This document shows positions 526-16,778 of a DNA stretch of 36,782 nt, one piece after another (the stretch's first letter is position 1; each line of letters begins with the position of its first letter). Source of the DNA: Cyanobacteria bacterium M_surface_10_m1_298 (GTDB lineage Bacteria > Cyanobacteriota > Cyanobacteriia > PCC-6307 > Cyanobiaceae); assembly GCA_016882485.1 (NCBI GenBank), contig VGPT01000013.1, positions 1 through 36,782 on the forward strand, written 5' to 3'. A program made the position numbers and the translations under genes. The notes under the pieces were generated by a model. That model saw only the letters and a program-made list of their open reading frames with translations. It was not told where the DNA came from and did not search any database.

Positions 526-879
526 TCAAGTGCCTGAGTCTGGCTTCAGCAGCAGAAAGCCAGACTCAGGATGTTCATAGAAGTAATGGATCTTCGAGAC
601 CCTCGAGAGGATCAACTGTGCAGTTGTCGCATTCGACGCGTTTCCAATCGCCAGACAGATCACCTTGGGCGGCCAGCCCAGGCTCATGCTCATCGAAAGG
701 AAGTCATCGTCCTTGGTGAGCAGCACCAATCCACTGGAGCGAGCCTCATCCCAGACGGCTTGATCATCAACCCCCGCGAGGCCAAGAAGGCGAAGATGAG
801 TGGAGCCTGGGAAGGCCTCATTGAGCAATGGAAGGAGTCGCTCGGAAAGGTTTTCGTCCAGGAGCAGCTTGATGCTCAA
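526..879 (-). CDS. DUF5615 PIN-like protein, putative toxin RNase
   Basis: This 117-residue protein matches the DUF5615 family of small PIN-like (Mut7-C related) proteins, usually encoded after a DUF433 gene and regarded as toxins. The N-terminal LLLDENLS (Asp8, Glu9) and the LLTKDDDF segment (Asp57-59) supply the acidic residues expected of a metal-dependent RNase site. Its start codon overlaps the stop of the upstream DUF433 gene by 4 bases, indicating coupled translation. The last dozen codons are a perfect 14-bp inverted repeat (533-570), so the tail PESGFLLLKPDSG may be a hairpin captured into the frame. RNase activity and toxicity are inferred from the family and are not visible directly. 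Confidence 0.85.
   Translation of the reverse strand: MSIKLLLDENLSERLLPLLNEAFPGSTHLRLLGLAGVDDQAVWDEARSSGLVLLTKDDDFLSMSMSLGWPPKVICLAIGNASNATTAQLILSRVSKIHYFYEHPESGFLLLKPDSGT
533..570. repeat. Perfect 14-bp inverted repeat at the end of the DUF5615 gene
   Basis: CCTGAGTCTGGCTT (533-546) and AAGCCAGACTCAGG (557-570) are exact reverse complements around a 10-base loop. The structure lies wholly inside the last codons of the toxin gene, read on the minus strand. No T tract follows on either side, so it is not a classical terminator. It could protect the 3' end of the mRNA or be a palindromic mobile repeat unit. Confidence 0.85.
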
Positions 880-4435: not shown

Positions 4436-4732
4436 CTAAGCCCCCGTCGGGAGATCCTCCTCCCAGAGGCCCATCCGGATCAGCCAATCGTTCGACTGAT
4501 CGCGCTCCCAGCCGTGATCGCGCTCGAGCACATCGGCGATCGACACCATCAGATCGAACAGCTCTCCTTCAAAGCCGTCGCCGGCAGTGGCCAGGCGTTG
4601 GATGTCATGGGCGAGTTGCAGGAGCTCCAGTTCCGCCATCCAGTCGCCCTGCTCGAAGGCGGTTCGGCTGGAGACGTGGTGCACGACTGGGATCAGCCCA
4701 GACAGCAGGCGGGTGAGATCTTGGAATCGCAA
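4436..4732 (-). CDS. Conserved-looking hypothetical protein (about 98 aa)
   Basis: I do not recognise a named family. From TTG 4732 the protein is soluble, acidic and largely helical (RFQDLTRLLSG, then WMAELELLQLAHDIQRLA, then ELFDLMVSIADVLERDHGWERD). The frame stays open farther upstream to 4957, but that part is antisense-like, low-complexity and inside the sigma gene, so I reject it. The start is 10 bases after the stop of the upstream sigma-like gene, suggesting a shared operon and possibly a partner of that sigma factor; this is inference only. Confidence 0.55.
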   Translation of the reverse strand: MRFQDLTRLLSGLIPVVHHVSSRTAFEQGDWMAELELLQLAHDIQRLATAGDGFEGELFDLMVSIADVLERDHGWERDQSNDWLIRMGLWEEDLPTGA

Positions 4733-4742
4733 GGGTCTTGGA

Positions 4743-5180
4743 TCAAAGGCCCCATAGGGTTCCGAGGGAGAGGGGCCTCTGTCCGCAGGCCTGCCGGCAA
4801 TCGAGCCATTCCTCCACGTTGATGCCGAGGCGCATGGCGATCTCCTCATCGCTGAGATCGAGCTCCAGCCAACGCCTCGCCTTGATCCAGAGCTCCCGGT
4901 AGCGGTGGCTGATGCGCAGGGCAAAACCCGTGTCGCGCAGGTGATGCAGCAGCTCACCCTTCACCTTGCTCACCAGGTAGCTGGAGGGCCGGAAACCTTT
5001 GGAGGGATCGAACTGGGCCGCTCCCTTGCACAGGCCTTCGTAGGCGGGGCCGAGCAGATCCTCGATGGGCATCGACCAGCGGCGGGCGTAGCGGTGGGCC
5101 TGCTGCCGTGCCAGGCCGAGATGCTCGGCGGCGAAGCGGCGTTGTTCGGGGCTGAGGCGTTGGGGCGCTTTGGTGGACAT
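4743..5180 (-). CDS. Short sigma-70 family protein without region 4 (A)
   Basis: From ATG 5180 this gives 145 residues. IEDLLGPAYEGLCKGAAQFDPSKGFRPSSYLVSKVKGELLHHLRD corresponds to sigma region 2, which binds core polymerase and melts the -10 element. RYRELWIKARRWLELDLSDEEIAMRLGINVEEW looks like region 3. The protein ends there, with no region 4 helix-turn-helix for the -35 element. Full group 3 sigma factors are usually well over 200 residues. The frame is open up to 5312, but residues before MSTKAPQ show no sigma similarity. It may direct extended -10 promoters, need a partner for -35 contact, or act as a modulator. Confidence 0.78.
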   Translation of the reverse strand: MSTKAPQRLSPEQRRFAAEHLGLARQQAHRYARRWSMPIEDLLGPAYEGLCKGAAQFDPSKGFRPSSYLVSKVKGELLHHLRDTGFALRISHRYRELWIKARRWLELDLSDEEIAMRLGINVEEWLDCRQACGQRPLSLGTLWGL

Positions 5181-5286
5181 CGAACGGTCACAGGTGCGGG
5201 AGGCTACCGGGGGCGCCCTTTCCTTCAGAAAGGCCAAAGAACGGAGCCCCCGCAGGGCATCACAGCGCTGGGAAACGGGCTCTGCT

Positions 5287-5321
5287 CCCACAGCTGTGCG
5301 GATCTGGGCCACAGCTGTGGG
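5287..5321. promoter_or_regulatory. Two identical palindromes 21 bp apart, putative operator
   Basis: The perfect 10-bp palindrome CACAGCTGTG occurs at 5289-5298 and again at 5310-5319. Outer CCC and GGG bases make the whole block CCCACAGCTGTG / CACAGCTGTGGG symmetric. Centre-to-centre distance is 21 bp, two helical turns, so two dimers could bind on the same DNA face. The block lies between the sigma-like gene (starting leftward at 5180) and the unknown gene starting rightward at 5360, and could control both. Confidence 0.6.
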
Positions 5322-5359
5322 CGGTGCCTGTCGCGTTGCCCCAGGCAGAACTAACGCAG

Positions 5360-5842
5360 ATGCTCAGTGCAGTCATGCCCACCCAAGTTCTGCTCACCTC
5401 CCACCACCCACAGGCGATGGAGAACGCCTGTGATCGCGGCTTCTGGATGCCTGTGCCGATCCCGATGGAGCGGTTGCAGACCCTGCTTTATCTGGTGTCG
5501 ATCAGCGAAAACGACACGGCGATTCGTGCCCTGGCGGAGATCACCAGCTTTGAGCCCTGGCGCAGTCAGGCAGGCCAGGAGCTCTGGCTGCCCTTCCTGG
5601 GCCGTTTGTTGCCGTTGCCGCGTCCAGTGCCCCTGGGCGATCGCCATCGGCTGGCGGAATGGCTCCCCCAACGGAGTGAACAAACGCTTCTTCTCGATCT
5701 GCTCCCTGTACTGGAGGCCGAGCAGCTCAGTGATCTCGCATGCGGCAGGCCAGGTCGCGGGAGCGCACGAGGCCCTGGGCGAGGCCCCAGGCGATCAGGC
5801 CGCGCTGTCCGCGCACACCAACCTTGCGGTAGAGCTCACTGA
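5360..5842 (+). CDS. Hypothetical protein with a C-terminal overlap onto the LuxR gene
   Basis: This predicted soluble protein of 160 residues belongs to no family I recognise. Residues up to about 120 look like a real globular protein (TQVLLTSHHPQAMENACDRGF, MERLQTLLYLVSISENDTAIRALAEI, EQTLLLDLLPVLEAEQLSDLA). The remaining tail is Arg/Gly-rich and reads antisense through the end of the convergent LuxR gene for 116 bases. Such a tail suggests the native stop near 5735 was lost by mutation or frameshift. ATG 5360 or ATG 5375 could be the start; the paired palindromes lie about 40 bases upstream. Confidence 0.6.
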   Translation: MLSAVMPTQVLLTSHHPQAMENACDRGFWMPVPIPMERLQTLLYLVSISENDTAIRALAEITSFEPWRSQAGQELWLPFLGRLLPLPRPVPLGDRHRLAEWLPQRSEQTLLLDLLPVLEAEQLSDLACGRPGRGSARGPGRGPRRSGRAVRAHQPCGRAH

Positions 5843-6422
5843 GCTGACGCCGAATCGTGTCGCTGCGGCGCTGCTCCAACGCCGCAATCTCACGGCTGTT
5901 GAAGCCCCTGGCGAGCAGCTCCAGCAGGCGCTGTTCGCTGACCTGCAGCCCCGGGGCTCTGACCGGTTGCTGGCGCAGCCGCTCCCCCAACAGCGGGTCG
6001 ATCGATTGCAGACCCCTCAGCAGCATCAACACCGCCTGCAGCAGGCGCCCGCCTCCGCAGTTCTGACGGCAGCAGAGGCCATCAGCCCCGCTGCTCCAGA
6101 GCTGCTTGAGGCGCTCCTGGGGGATCGAGGCATCGAGGCACACCAGCACCTTGGCCGGTTGCAGGCGGCTGATCAGCTCAAGGGCTCCTCCGTCGGGGAG
6201 TTCGTCATCGCAGATCACCAGCAAATGCTCCGCCTTCGGTAGTGGAAGGGCCAGCAACTCCGCCAGGGAGCGAGCGGCGAAATGACATCCCTCCAACAGC
6301 ACTGAGGCGGAGGCAATCAGGCGCTCATCGCCGGAGCACACTGCAATGCTCCAATCCCTCTGCAGATCCGAGATGGCTTTCTGCAGAGCCTTGACCTGGC
6401 TGCGGATCTCAGTGGGATGCAC
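5727..6422 (-). CDS. LuxR-family response regulator with a degenerate receiver domain
   Basis: This 231-residue regulator has an N-terminal receiver-like domain in which Asp72 of VICDDELPDG occupies the phospho-acceptor position. The conserved lysine after GADG appears replaced (GADGLCCRQ), so phosphorylation may be weak or absent. The C-terminal LuxR/GerE helix-turn-helix is clear: EQRLLELLARGFNSREIA followed by DTIRRQLSELYRKVGVRGQRGLIAW. Translation starts at GTG 6422, preceded by AGGG. It sits between two short sigma-like genes on the same strand, 78 bases after the second. The target genes are unknown; the adjacent paired palindromes are an obvious candidate. Confidence 0.85.
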   Translation of the reverse strand: MHPTEIRSQVKALQKAISDLQRDWSIAVCSGDERLIASASVLLEGCHFAARSLAELLALPLPKAEHLLVICDDELPDGGALELISRLQPAKVLVCLDASIPQERLKQLWSSGADGLCCRQNCGGGRLLQAVLMLLRGLQSIDPLLGERLRQQPVRAPGLQVSEQRLLELLARGFNSREIAALEQRRSDTIRRQLSELYRKVGVRGQRGLIAWGLAQGLVRSRDLACRMRDH

Positions 6423-6500
6423 GGCCCTGATCTTGCCGTCACTGCTGTAGCTCGATTCGCCACAAACCCACCCGTTGTTTTGTTTTCAATCGGAAAGGGT

Positions 6501-7097
6501 TCAGATCAGAGCGCAGGTCATCGTGCTGTTCCACTGCATGAGCAGTCTCTGCAATCCTTCAGCGCTCAAGGGAAGGCGTGGGCTGCTGAGTTGCCGGGCT
6601 AACCACTGCATGGAGGGCGTGGATCCTTGCTCCTGCCTGCAGGTCTCCCAGAGTTTCTGTGCCCTGAGCACGAGCTCCGCCTTGTCTGCTGGGAAGTGAA
6701 TCGTGCGCCGGCAGCGCTGCTCAAACTGATGCAATCCGCGCCGGATCCAGAAGCTGGCGTAGGTGGAGAAGCGGTATCCCTTGGCTGGATCGAATTTCTC
6801 TGCCGCTCGCACCAGATTGAGGGCTCCCTCTTGCAGGGCGTCAGCGGTGCTGCTCTCCTCGGCGCTCAGATTGGGGTGATAGGTCCGCCAGATGTAGCCC
6901 ACCAGAGACAGGTTGTGCCGCACCAGGCGATCGCGGGCCCGCAGACCGCGGCGGCGTAGAGCCTTGGGTGCTTGATCCGGTCCCTGGGGGTGACGCTGCC
7001 AGCTCTGAATCACCCGGGCCAGCTCGAGCACGGTGCGCTCCGCCAGGGGGGTATGCAGGCGGCTCGCCTGCAGCCATTGGCCCACCGCTCGATCCAT
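6501..7097 (-). CDS. Short sigma-70 family protein without region 4 (B)
   Basis: From ATG 7097, preceded by GGAG at a good distance, this encodes 198 residues. MDRAVGQWLQASRLHTPLAERTVLELARVIQSWQ resembles region 1.2. RDRLVRHNLSLVGYIW and DALQEGALNLVRAAEKFDPAKGYRFSTYASFWIRRGL are a strong region 2 match, close to group 1/2 RpoD-type factors. A region 3-like part follows (TIHFPADKAELVLRAQKLWE). The protein ends at about the start of region 4, whereas group 2 factors are usually 300 residues or more. It lies 37 bases downstream of the GH57 gene. With sigma-like protein A it forms a cluster of two region-4-less factors. Confidence 0.82.
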   Translation of the reverse strand: MDRAVGQWLQASRLHTPLAERTVLELARVIQSWQRHPQGPDQAPKALRRRGLRARDRLVRHNLSLVGYIWRTYHPNLSAEESSTADALQEGALNLVRAAEKFDPAKGYRFSTYASFWIRRGLHQFEQRCRRTIHFPADKAELVLRAQKLWETCRQEQGSTPSMQWLARQLSSPRLPLSAEGLQRLLMQWNSTMTCALI

Positions 7098-7134
7098 CGA
7101 GGCTCCAATCCGCTGCCTGGAGTGTTCCCCGGTT

Positions 7135-8556
7135 TCAGGCCAGGCAGCCCATGCCGCGGCGGTGAATCTCACGGGCGTAGTCGGTCCAGGTGCCCTGCCC
7201 CCAGTAGCGAAAGCAGCTGGTTTCCAGCAACAACAGATGCAGCAACGCCTCCTGGTAATTGGGGTCGCTGGTCGGGGCTGTGGGGTAGCGCTGGTGGAAA
7301 GCGGCGCTGAGCTCCTGCATCGGCTCCAGAACGCTCTCGTAGCCGTTCACCCAGCTCAGGTCGTTGGTCCAGGAGGCCCCATCGATCGAGAAGCCTGGAT
7401 CCGAGACCTTCAGGGCTGCAATCGCCTGCTCCAGTTGTTCTGTCGACCAGCGCTCTCCCAGCTGAGCGCTGAGCCGGTGCTGCCCCACGGCCTGAAGAGC
7501 GGGGAACTGCTCTGCACTGATTCCTTGGGTCTCCAGAAGCTCGAGGAACTCGCTGCCATTGATGGCGGCGGTGCCGTGATCGCCGGCGCAGCGCTGGTGG
7601 GCCTGAATGAAGGCCTGGGGGAATTCATTCATCATCACGCCCCCGTTTTCGCCATCGGCGATCTGGGAGACCAACGACGGCAGCGTGATGTCTCCCAGGG
7701 GGAGCCGATCGCGGCTGATCGCCTCGTAATAGGGCTGCATCTGACCCACCAGCTTGGTGTCAGAGCCCTGGGTCTTGATCAGGGCGGTGATCGCTCGGGT
7801 CTCGCCCTGGCCATTGCGGGCGATCAGGCGATTGGGCAGATACTTCTGCGCCTCTGAGAGGGGTTCGCCGCTCAGTGTTTCCACGCTGTGCTCCTGCAGC
7901 AGCACCCAGCGGTAGCCCGCCTGCTGCAGGGCATCGATCAGGGCGAAGAGGGTCTCGGGGTGGTTCGGCAGAGCCATCTCCGGCAGGGAGAACCCCCGCA
8001 CCCGCTGCAGGGCCTCGATCCCGAAGGCATCAGCGAACTGGTGCTGCCAGGCCTCGATCTGCAGCCTCAGATCGGGGATTGGAGTGGAAGGGGCCACCGC
8101 ATGGCTCCAAAAGGTGCCCAGCCACTCCACGTGCTGCTGCATCTGCGGATCACGGGCCAGATGGCGCCAGGCTTCGGTGATGTCGGAGCGCCCCATCTGC
8201 TCGGCTCCCCAGAGCAGGTTGCCCGAGACATCGAGCATGATCCGCGGGCTGCAGCCCTGCTCGATCAACTGGGGGATCAGATCGCTCAGGCGCCGGTAGC
8301 ACTGGGCGAAGGGTTCGGCGTTGTGGTTGTCTCCTTCCCCCTGGTGCTCAAACATGTATTGGAGGTGGGAGATCAGTTCGCCGCCTGGGCCCGCCGGGAT
8401 CGTGGGTTGGTGCATGTGCAACGCACAGGCGAAGGCGGAGCGCAGCTGATCGAGCTTCAGGGGGGAGTGCTCGAGCCAGTAGCGGCCCCCTTCCGCCATT
8501 GCCGCCTGGATGTCAGCTTCGCGACCGCTGATGACAGCTGCGCTGGTGTCGGCCAT
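7135..8556 (-). CDS. Glycoside hydrolase family 57 protein
   Basis: This 473-residue protein has the GH57 N-terminal motif ALHMHQP (His47, His49), and GFSLPEMAL carries a Glu at the position of the family's catalytic nucleophile. GH57 enzymes act on alpha-glucans as amylases, amylopullulanases, branching enzymes or 4-alpha-glucanotransferases, so glycogen metabolism is plausible. The conserved sequence begins near residue 40. The start ATG at 8556 gives MADTSAAV. Exact specificity cannot be read. The gene precedes sigma-like protein B by 37 bases and may be co-transcribed with it, which would link the regulator to carbohydrate state. Confidence 0.85.
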   Translation of the reverse strand: MADTSAAVISGREADIQAAMAEGGRYWLEHSPLKLDQLRSAFACALHMHQPTIPAGPGGELISHLQYMFEHQGEGDNHNAEPFAQCYRRLSDLIPQLIEQGCSPRIMLDVSGNLLWGAEQMGRSDITEAWRHLARDPQMQQHVEWLGTFWSHAVAPSTPIPDLRLQIEAWQHQFADAFGIEALQRVRGFSLPEMALPNHPETLFALIDALQQAGYRWVLLQEHSVETLSGEPLSEAQKYLPNRLIARNGQGETRAITALIKTQGSDTKLVGQMQPYYEAISRDRLPLGDITLPSLVSQIADGENGGVMMNEFPQAFIQAHQRCAGDHGTAAINGSEFLELLETQGISAEQFPALQAVGQHRLSAQLGERWSTEQLEQAIAALKVSDPGFSIDGASWTNDLSWVNGYESVLEPMQELSAAFHQRYPTAPTSDPNYQEALLHLLLLETSCFRYWGQGTWTDYAREIHRRGMGCLA

Positions 8557-15591: not shown

Positions 15592-16143
15592 ATGGCTACG
15601 GTCAGCATGAGTCCTGCAGGAGCCATGGAGCGTTGGCGGTCATGCCCGGCCCTGGCGGAGAAAGAGGACGGCTTCCTCTCTGTTGTTGCCGACTACCTGG
15701 TTGATCTTGAGGCCCTCGATCCTCAGCAGCGCCAGTGTTTGGCTCTGTTCAAGGCGGCCGAGTTGATCAATGCCTTGATCCAGCTGCGGGAGCGCCGGGA
15801 GGCGGAAGATCGCGTAGGCCCGGAGCTGGCCCAGCGTTCTTTTCAGTTGGTGCGGGCCGTGATCCGCAACCGCACACTCCCCTATGCCGGAAGCCAGAGC
15901 CACTGCCTGAGGGATCCGCAACTGACGGCCTTGATCGATGAAGGTTGTCGCCTGTTCCATCTCGGCAAATCCGACAAAGACCTCTACCAACGCGCCCTGG
16001 CACTCTCTGCCGCCCAGTGCATTGCCTTGCAGGATGAACTGGGTCCTGCACTGGACCAGTACCTCCAGGGCTGTCGGTTGGCGCTGCCTGCGTCACTGCT
16101 GGCCTCGGTGCGCAGCAGCTTCATCGACGCCTACCGCGTCTAG
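15592..16143 (+). CDS. Hypothetical helical protein (183 aa)
   Basis: From ATG 15592 the protein is predicted to be all helical and soluble: LVDLEALDPQQRQCLALFKAAELINALIQLRERREAED, then QLVRAVIRNRTLPYAG, DPQLTALIDEGCRLFHLG and CIALQDELGPALDQYLQGC. I know of no named family. Its stop (TAG at 16141-16143) and that of the convergent C39-like peptidase gene share the same CTAG. No terminator fits between them. Confidence 0.7.
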   Translation: MATVSMSPAGAMERWRSCPALAEKEDGFLSVVADYLVDLEALDPQQRQCLALFKAAELINALIQLRERREAEDRVGPELAQRSFQLVRAVIRNRTLPYAGSQSHCLRDPQLTALIDEGCRLFHLGKSDKDLYQRALALSAAQCIALQDELGPALDQYLQGCRLALPASLLASVRSSFIDAYRV

Positions 16144-16688
16144 AGCCGTATCCACCAGCCGCTTCCCGGGCCATCCACCAGCCAACGGGGCAGGAAGTTC
16201 TGAGCGGAGTAGCGCAGCCCCGCACCCTGGCTTCGGTTGAGGTAGCCCCCTCCCACCAGATTCGCTTCTCCGTTGGGGTCATGCATCAGCAGCGCCCTCG
16301 AGCTGGAATCCCAGCCGATCAACAGGCTCCAGTGGCCTCCTCCAGCTGGGGCGGAAACGGGGCCGTGATGCAACCAGCCCACCGGGCAGGGAATTCCGCT
16401 CTCCAACTGATCGATCAGATCGTTGAGGCTGCCATCGGTTTGAAAGCGGGCCTCGATGCCGAGGCTGCGCAGCGCAGACACCTGGGCGGCGGGATCTGTG
16501 GTGTCGCCATAGCGCTGCACCACGGCGAGATAGCGATCGTCGATCTGCCCGGATCCGCGCAGCGCATCCGGTTTGAGGTAGGCCGCGGCCATGGCGCAGC
16601 TGGAGCTGAAACACATCCGAGTGCCCTGGCCCGTGGCGCTGTCGTTCTGGCTCAGGTAAGGAACAGCAAGCTGAGTAAGCATCGGCAT
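16140..16688 (-). CDS. C39-like papain-fold cysteine peptidase
   Basis: This 182-residue protein follows the peptidase C39-like pattern. VPYLSQNDSATGQGTRMCFSSSCAMAAAYL places the candidate catalytic Cys26, GGGHWSLLIGWD gives His119, and LLMHDPNG supplies Asp137. No signal peptide or ABC transporter domain is attached, so it is a stand-alone cytoplasmic or leaderless enzyme, unlike bacteriocin-processing C39 transporters. Substrate unknown. ATG 16688 or ATG 16682 could be the start. Confidence 0.8.
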   Translation of the reverse strand: MPMLTQLAVPYLSQNDSATGQGTRMCFSSSCAMAAAYLKPDALRGSGQIDDRYLAVVQRYGDTTDPAAQVSALRSLGIEARFQTDGSLNDLIDQLESGIPCPVGWLHHGPVSAPAGGGHWSLLIGWDSSSRALLMHDPNGEANLVGGGYLNRSQGAGLRYSAQNFLPRWLVDGPGSGWWIRL

Positions 16689-16778
16689 CCGTTCGCGCTA
16701 ACCCTGGAGGGTTCCGGGAGGCGGTGCTGATCGATTCAGTTCCGGATCCTGTTCCCTGGTTGACTCCGCGTTTTGGCC

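Follow-up and report, generated by a model that had tools for sequence, protein, structure and literature searches.

A conserved picocyanobacterial cassette with two sigma factors that lack region 4: a candidate phage-derived transcription switch

Outside the T4-like phages, few sigma factors are known to act independently of region 4. Late promoters of phage T4, which are read by gp55, contain a -10-like element, and a -35 element is not conserved in them (PMC7892883). The cyanosiphovirus P-SS2 encodes sigma factors of groups 2 and 3, and P-SS2-like relics have been described in Synechococcus RS9917 (PMC2784084). A literature search found no published description of a chromosomal pair of such sigma genes, of its loss of region 4 or of its candidate promoter site. 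We analysed a locus in which two sigma-like genes flank a LuxR-type regulator gene, and we propose that it may represent a phage-derived transcription switch retained by the host, in which sigma A would read -10-only promoters in the manner of T4 gp55. We put the probability of this reading at about one half.

The window comprises 36,782 nucleotides of Cyanobacteria bacterium M_surface_10_m1_298 (assembly GCA_016882485.1, contig VGPT01000013.1), and the features discussed here are collected in Table 1. Sigma70_r2 (PF04542) is the sole Pfam domain in both sigma A (E = 2.8e-10) and sigma B (E = 2.4e-12), above cut-off in each case, and no region 4 is found by Pfam in either protein. The nearest NCBIfam profile is SigF (PRK07408, 4.9e-20) for sigma A and cyanobacterial RpoD/SigA (2.2e-25) for sigma B. 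The predicted structure of sigma A consists of a sigma2 domain and a short sigma3 helical bundle, after which the protein ends, and the model matches the corresponding part of solved sigma factors. Sigma B matches solved SigA/RpoD chains over regions 2-3. The first-pass annotation, made from the letters of the window, had described both proteins as keeping region 2 and part of region 3 without region 4 and had placed sigma A with group 3 and sigma B with group 1/2; the Pfam and model results bear out the former and the NCBIfam profiles the latter. The same ends of sigma A and sigma B occur in the complete single-contig genomes G009, G092 and G115, as well as at loci L081 and L082, and sequencing error is thereby excluded as their cause. 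The window's genome, a 1.99-Mb draft in 145 contigs, encodes ten proteins with a PF04542 region 2, two of them at this locus.

Table 1. Features of the sigma cassette and its neighborhood, in window coordinates
Feature	Position	Strand	Remarks
Small gene, no known family	4436..4732	-	After sigma A; conserved
Sigma A	4743..5180	-	145 aa from the likely start, ATG 5180; SigF-like; regions 2 and 3.0-3.1 only, without region 4
Conserved 16-nt site TAGCCTCCCGCACCTG	5191..5206	-	Candidate -10-only promoter (or operator), lying just before sigma A
Small gene, no known family	5375..5806 (homologous stretch)	+	Lies within ORF 5324-5842, between luxR and sigma A; conserved
LuxR/NarL-type regulator	5727..6422	-	Receiver degenerate: Asp retained, but neither the acidic pair nor Lys
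Sigma B	6501..7097	-	198 aa from the likely start, ATG 7097; RpoD-like; keeps regions 1.2 and 2 and some of region 3; has lost the region 4 that the sister clade retains
Conserved block GGGGAACACTCC, GGGGAA(C/T)(A/G)CTCC	7119..7130	-	Upstream of sigma B
Gene labelled GH57 in the first-pass annotation	7135..8556	-	Core host gene, neighbor only, outside the system

Homologues were searched for in 151 genomes of the family and then in all 25 genomes of the genus. The order sigB, luxR, opposite-strand gene, sigA, strands included, recurs in many Vulcanococcus, Synechococcus and Cyanobium genomes, which fall into two clades. Within the genus, sigA (at least 64% identity) and luxR, the genes covered by the 25-genome count, are found in an identical set of 16 genomes. 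The suggestion that two sigma factors without region 4 and a LuxR-type protein could make up an unusual transcription switch thus gains support from a conserved arrangement common to two clades. The cassette lies between host genes in the window's clade (G000, G165, G009, G092, G115 and G160). In the sister clade (G064, G134, G150, G156, G161, G162, G163, L078 and L089) one flank carries genes for a DnaG-like primase and a DnaB-like helicase plus one more conserved gene, and the other flank a phosphoesterase gene. Genomes of the window's clade have neither the DnaB-like nor the phosphoesterase gene, the one exception being a piece of the latter in G009. This fragment (C1:279742-280908; L408 14742-15908) combines the 3' part of the phosphoesterase gene with a 120-aa gene and gene C9, about 400 kb from the cassette, and is a probable scar of a lost copy of the element, the G009 cassette itself being devoid of those genes. 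G134 contains the module in two copies about 49 kb apart (C1:2205351-2215789 and 2250326-2266913; L093-L096), and sigA in the second copy is broken into two frames with a TGA. Upstream of the primase gene in G162 (L362 1030-2653) are genes for Rad52-family and Siphovirus Gp157/Mu Gam-like proteins, which also occur in G064 and G134 and probably belong to the element.

The gene labelled GH57 had been taken as a link to glycan metabolism. This label is unsupported by Pfam and NCBIfam at E <= 0.1, and the gene adjoins the cassette in the window's clade only; it is a core gene that is located elsewhere in G064, G134 and G150, so the proposed link falls away. A clean empty site at this gene was not demonstrable because gene order differs.

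Pairwise dN/dS values (YN00 where computable) are 0.03-0.11 for sigma A, 0.12-0.28 for sigma B and 0.08-0.29 for luxR, next to 0.07-0.10 (YN00) for the adjacent core gene. The three cassette genes are under purifying selection. These values bear on the view that the sigma genes are pseudogenes left by a dead prophage, a view to which the missing replication genes of the window's clade, the broken sigA in one of the two G134 copies and the phosphoesterase-C9 scar elsewhere in G009 would lend themselves. Given that dN/dS is far below 1 in luxR and in the two truncated genes, and that the frames are intact in no fewer than five species-level genomes, simple decay is set aside on the strength of the low values for the truncated genes, and we regard it as very improbable.

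Kinship with phages is evident for both sigma factors. The phage sigma profile phrog_36098 matches residues 8-139 of sigma A (E = 2.6e-32), and each of the cyanosiphoviruses P-SS2, S-CBS2 and S-CRES1 carries an A-type sigma gene beside terL and a B-type sigma gene near its replication genes. In S-CRES1 the order is helicase, replication gene (opposite strand), sigB, then sigA, primase and phosphoesterase, which parallels the sister-clade cassette. A scan of a public virus collection with a single sigma A sequence as query found nothing; with an alignment as query it returned 75 contigs carrying A, among which terL lies in the same stretch in 74, B in 46 and luxR in none. Complete phage A proteins are mostly 204-267 aa long, and region 4 was undetected in their extra tail (hhalign probability 0.3%; no Pfam match). 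By sequence comparison, then, the lack of region 4 in sigma A is a trait of its whole phage family, region 4 being absent in every relative, phage included. The first-pass view of two independent truncations of ordinary sigma factors has to be revised on this point, since the lack in A is shared with the phage family and only that in B is lineage-specific.

The cassette is not an intact prophage, as no terminase, portal or capsid gene was found by homology near any copy. S-CBS2-type TerL was likewise not found in G000, G009, G115, G092, G134, G064 or G150. Separate S-CBS2-like prophages, equipped with terL, portal and capsid genes and an A-type sigma gene of their own, occur in some cassette-bearing congeners, from which we conclude that the cassette is distinct from intact prophages. 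In G156, for example, two S-CBS2-like prophage regions that are nearly identical lie about 56 kb from each other (C18, ~109-125 kb and 165-181 kb; L338-L342), and each has terL, portal and capsid genes and an A-type sigma gene of its own. A prophage in the window was considered and rejected because phage structural genes were not seen among the window's other genes. One window ORF (16140-16592, minus strand; endolysin-like match at 16143-16694) matches the C-terminal part only of the S-CBS2 endolysin (49%); fuller endolysin relatives lie near the element in G134 and G162.

The history of sigma B differs from that of sigma A. The first-pass annotation had proposed that gene order and sigma lengths be compared in other picocyanobacteria; the order is kept in both clades, and SigB has about 200 aa in the window's clade, where read, versus about 310-340 aa in the sister clade. 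The extra part of the sister-clade protein is a divergent region 4 (hhalign profile comparison, 95.9%, E = 5e-9). Region 4 loss in sigma B is, as far as these profiles tell, a lineage-specific and clean loss in the window's clade. Close relatives with region 4, which had been named beforehand as a mark of simple decay, were thus found for B and not for A, and decay does not follow for B, purifying selection excluding it. In a tree of B proteins both host clades join (95/94), apart from cellular and phage sigma factors; the truncated proteins form two well-supported subgroups with weak joint support (78/65), and region 4 may have been lost in one event or more. Upstream of sigB, the GGGGAACACTCC block differs from the site before sigA and looks like a putative regulator site. 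Directly before sigB at L072 (6476-6507) there is a perfect inverted repeat, GGGAACACTCCA...TGGAGTGTTCCC, to which this block belongs and of which one half only is kept in other genomes.

The LuxR-type protein has a predicted NarL/FixJ fold with a receiver and a LuxR helix-turn-helix (HTH), and its PDB matches are LiaR, RcsB and VraR. Receiver residues were judged from an alignment together with the strands of the predicted model. The phosphoacceptor Asp of the motif VICD is kept, Lys is replaced by Arg and the acidic pair by Cys-Ser, so that Asp alone is kept of the NarL/FixJ phosphorylation set (acidic pair, Asp, Thr/Ser, Lys). The abnormal receiver noticed in the first pass is thereby confirmed, with the gene's coordinates corrected to 5727-6422, and input to the protein is probably of a kind other than classical phosphorylation. 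Since no phage relative was found (0 of the 75 viral contigs carrying A), the protein probably comes from the host. The opposite-strand gene overlaps the 3' end of luxR, and homologues of the small gene after sigma A occur near the sister-clade cassette too. These two genes, the site before sigma A and the phage connection were absent from the first-pass annotation. Elsewhere in the window (526-879, minus strand), a short ORF (LSIKLLLDENLSERLLP...) resembles a putative DUF5615-type toxin and has a very close counterpart in G134, where the ORF lies between luxR and sigA.

The site TAGCCTCCCGCACCTG lies about 10 nt before the sigma A start codon in the window and is common to both clades. It has one exact copy in the window's genome. 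Copies with zero or one mismatch in ten whole genomes all lie inside cassettes, with one each in the window's genome, G009, G115, G092 and G163, two each in G064, G156 and G151, and four in G134; two-mismatch copies occur mostly near the level of a reversed control pattern. In the sister clade the site is also found before the phosphoesterase gene, and a weaker form precedes the head gene of the replication operon. Across 24 sites, which are related copies and not independent, T, A, G, C and the last T of TAGCCT are invariant, the ten bases that follow are strongly conserved, and positions -13 to -1 upstream are moderately conserved. No -35 box was found upstream of TAGCCT at these sites, where the best match to TTGACA scored 2.5 versus 2.54 in random sequence. 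We consider TAGCCTCCCGCACCTG a candidate promoter with a -10-like core and no -35 element, as in T4 late promoters; alternatively, it may serve as a leader element or as an operator to which a repressor or the LuxR-type protein binds. The 16-mer is absent from the phages, including the stretch before phage sigA genes, where a TARAMT hexamer occurs at a similar place and in many cases overlaps the terL stop codon. The T4-like sequence TATAAATA was not enriched in the phages.

The suggestion of a split sigma system at this locus implies that the LuxR-type HTH, or another protein, would supply the upstream DNA contact that region 4 normally makes, for A, B or both. Three observations are in keeping with this: luxR occurs in exactly the same 16 genomes as sigA, its HTH weakly matches the phage sigma profile phrog_3282 (E = 0.0073), and the bases just upstream of TAGCCT show the moderate conservation described above. 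Yet luxR persists in genomes whose sigma B includes a region 4, it is missing from all the phages that use A, a conserved box at -35 distance was not found, and a genome census revealed no new region-4-only gene by which the window's clade is set apart. As both carry region 2, sigma A and sigma B cannot complete each other. We judge a split sigma factor to be quite unlikely.

Under the preferred reading, the locus would be a host-kept remnant of a chromosomal element with a P-SS2/S-CBS2-type transcription and replication module. Sigma A belongs to a phage sigma family that would read promoters by region 2 (and 3) only; its region 2 would bind the clamp of core RNA polymerase and start transcription at TAGCCTCCCGCACCTG without a -35 element. 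In the complete element, TAGCCTCCCGCACCTG would drive sigma A itself (autoregulation) and the phosphoesterase operon, and its weaker form the replication operon. Sigma B and the LuxR-type protein, at the head of the cassette, would act earlier in the cascade and probably set the timing of sigma A production. In the window's clade, where the replication genes are gone and sigma B lacks region 4, the switch is still under selection, which suggests that it was taken over for a host purpose, perhaps the control of, or response to, related phages. A more specific version, which we hold tentatively as somewhat doubtful in its full detail, is a phage late-transcription switch domesticated by freshwater picocyanobacteria, with a host sigma factor without region 4 on a dedicated -10-only promoter, a second sigma factor whose region 4 was lost after domestication, and a phosphorylation-independent LuxR-type controller.

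The same anatomy could also suit a decoy or inhibitor. Truncated sigma factors would then bind core polymerase by region 2, be unable to start transcription and compete with phage or host sigma factors, in an anti-phage or copy-control role. A kept region 2 with a missing region 4 has a dominant-negative shape; in some genomes the cassette coexists with separate S-CBS2-like prophages that encode an A sigma themselves; and the window's clade, in which sigma B lost region 4, is the one that lacks the replication module. However, the phage homologs of A, which also lack region 4, belong to replicating phages, so that inactivity is not implied; the region 3 helices are conserved too, and a dedicated -10-only site suits a working sigma factor. 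We consider this explanation, under which the site before sigA would be read by a resident sigma factor or serve as an operator, unlikely.

Should the more specific, domesticated version of the preferred reading be true, cells would possess an equivalent of T4 gp55 that has a promoter class to itself. A sigma family that occurs both in cyanosiphoviruses and in their hosts, and whose candidate promoter is sharply defined, makes promoter specificity based on regions 2 and 3 only directly testable in cells, and it offers a way into late transcription of a poorly understood phage group. The sigma B proteins, with a divergent region 4 in the sister clade and none in the window's clade, illustrate stepwise loss of region 4 under continued selection.

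Among described systems, T4 late transcription (gp55/gp33/gp45) resembles the cassette in its sigma-like protein, which contains a region 2 domain but lacks region 4, in its -10-like promoters without a -35 element and in the possible use of a separate helper protein, for which the LuxR-type protein is a candidate only. Unlike gp55, sigma A is a recognizable SigF-type protein with region 3, and its site contains TAGCCT in place of the T4 sequence TATAAATA. The analysis, unsystematic on this point, turned up neither a clamp-binding tail in sigma A nor a partner of the gp33 or gp45 kind. The SigO-RsoA split sigma factor of Bacillus subtilis likewise divides sigma functions between separate genes; there, one partner carries region 2/3 and the other region 4, whereas both sigma factors here carry region 2 and the cassette yielded no gene for a separate region 4. 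In sequence, the cassette proteins resemble the group 2 and group 3 sigma factors of P-SS2, S-CBS2 and S-CRES1 (phrog_36098 for A); these phages have A and B in one genome, and their A proteins match sigma A over nearly its whole length at 39-42% identity and lack region 4, being themselves putative sigma factors. The primase, helicase and phosphoesterase genes and the gene order of the cyanosiphoviruses are also similar to those of the sister-clade cassette. In contrast to these phages, the genes here are chromosomal, a LuxR-type gene lies between the sigma genes, terminase and capsid genes are not nearby, sigma A ends 60-100 residues earlier, and sigma B also lacks region 4. Relic prophages of RS9917 likewise have P-SS2-like sigma genes left in a picocyanobacterial chromosome (PMC2784084); those islands contain terminase, integrase and structural genes and have a degraded look, whereas the cassette described here is compact, conserved and under selection.
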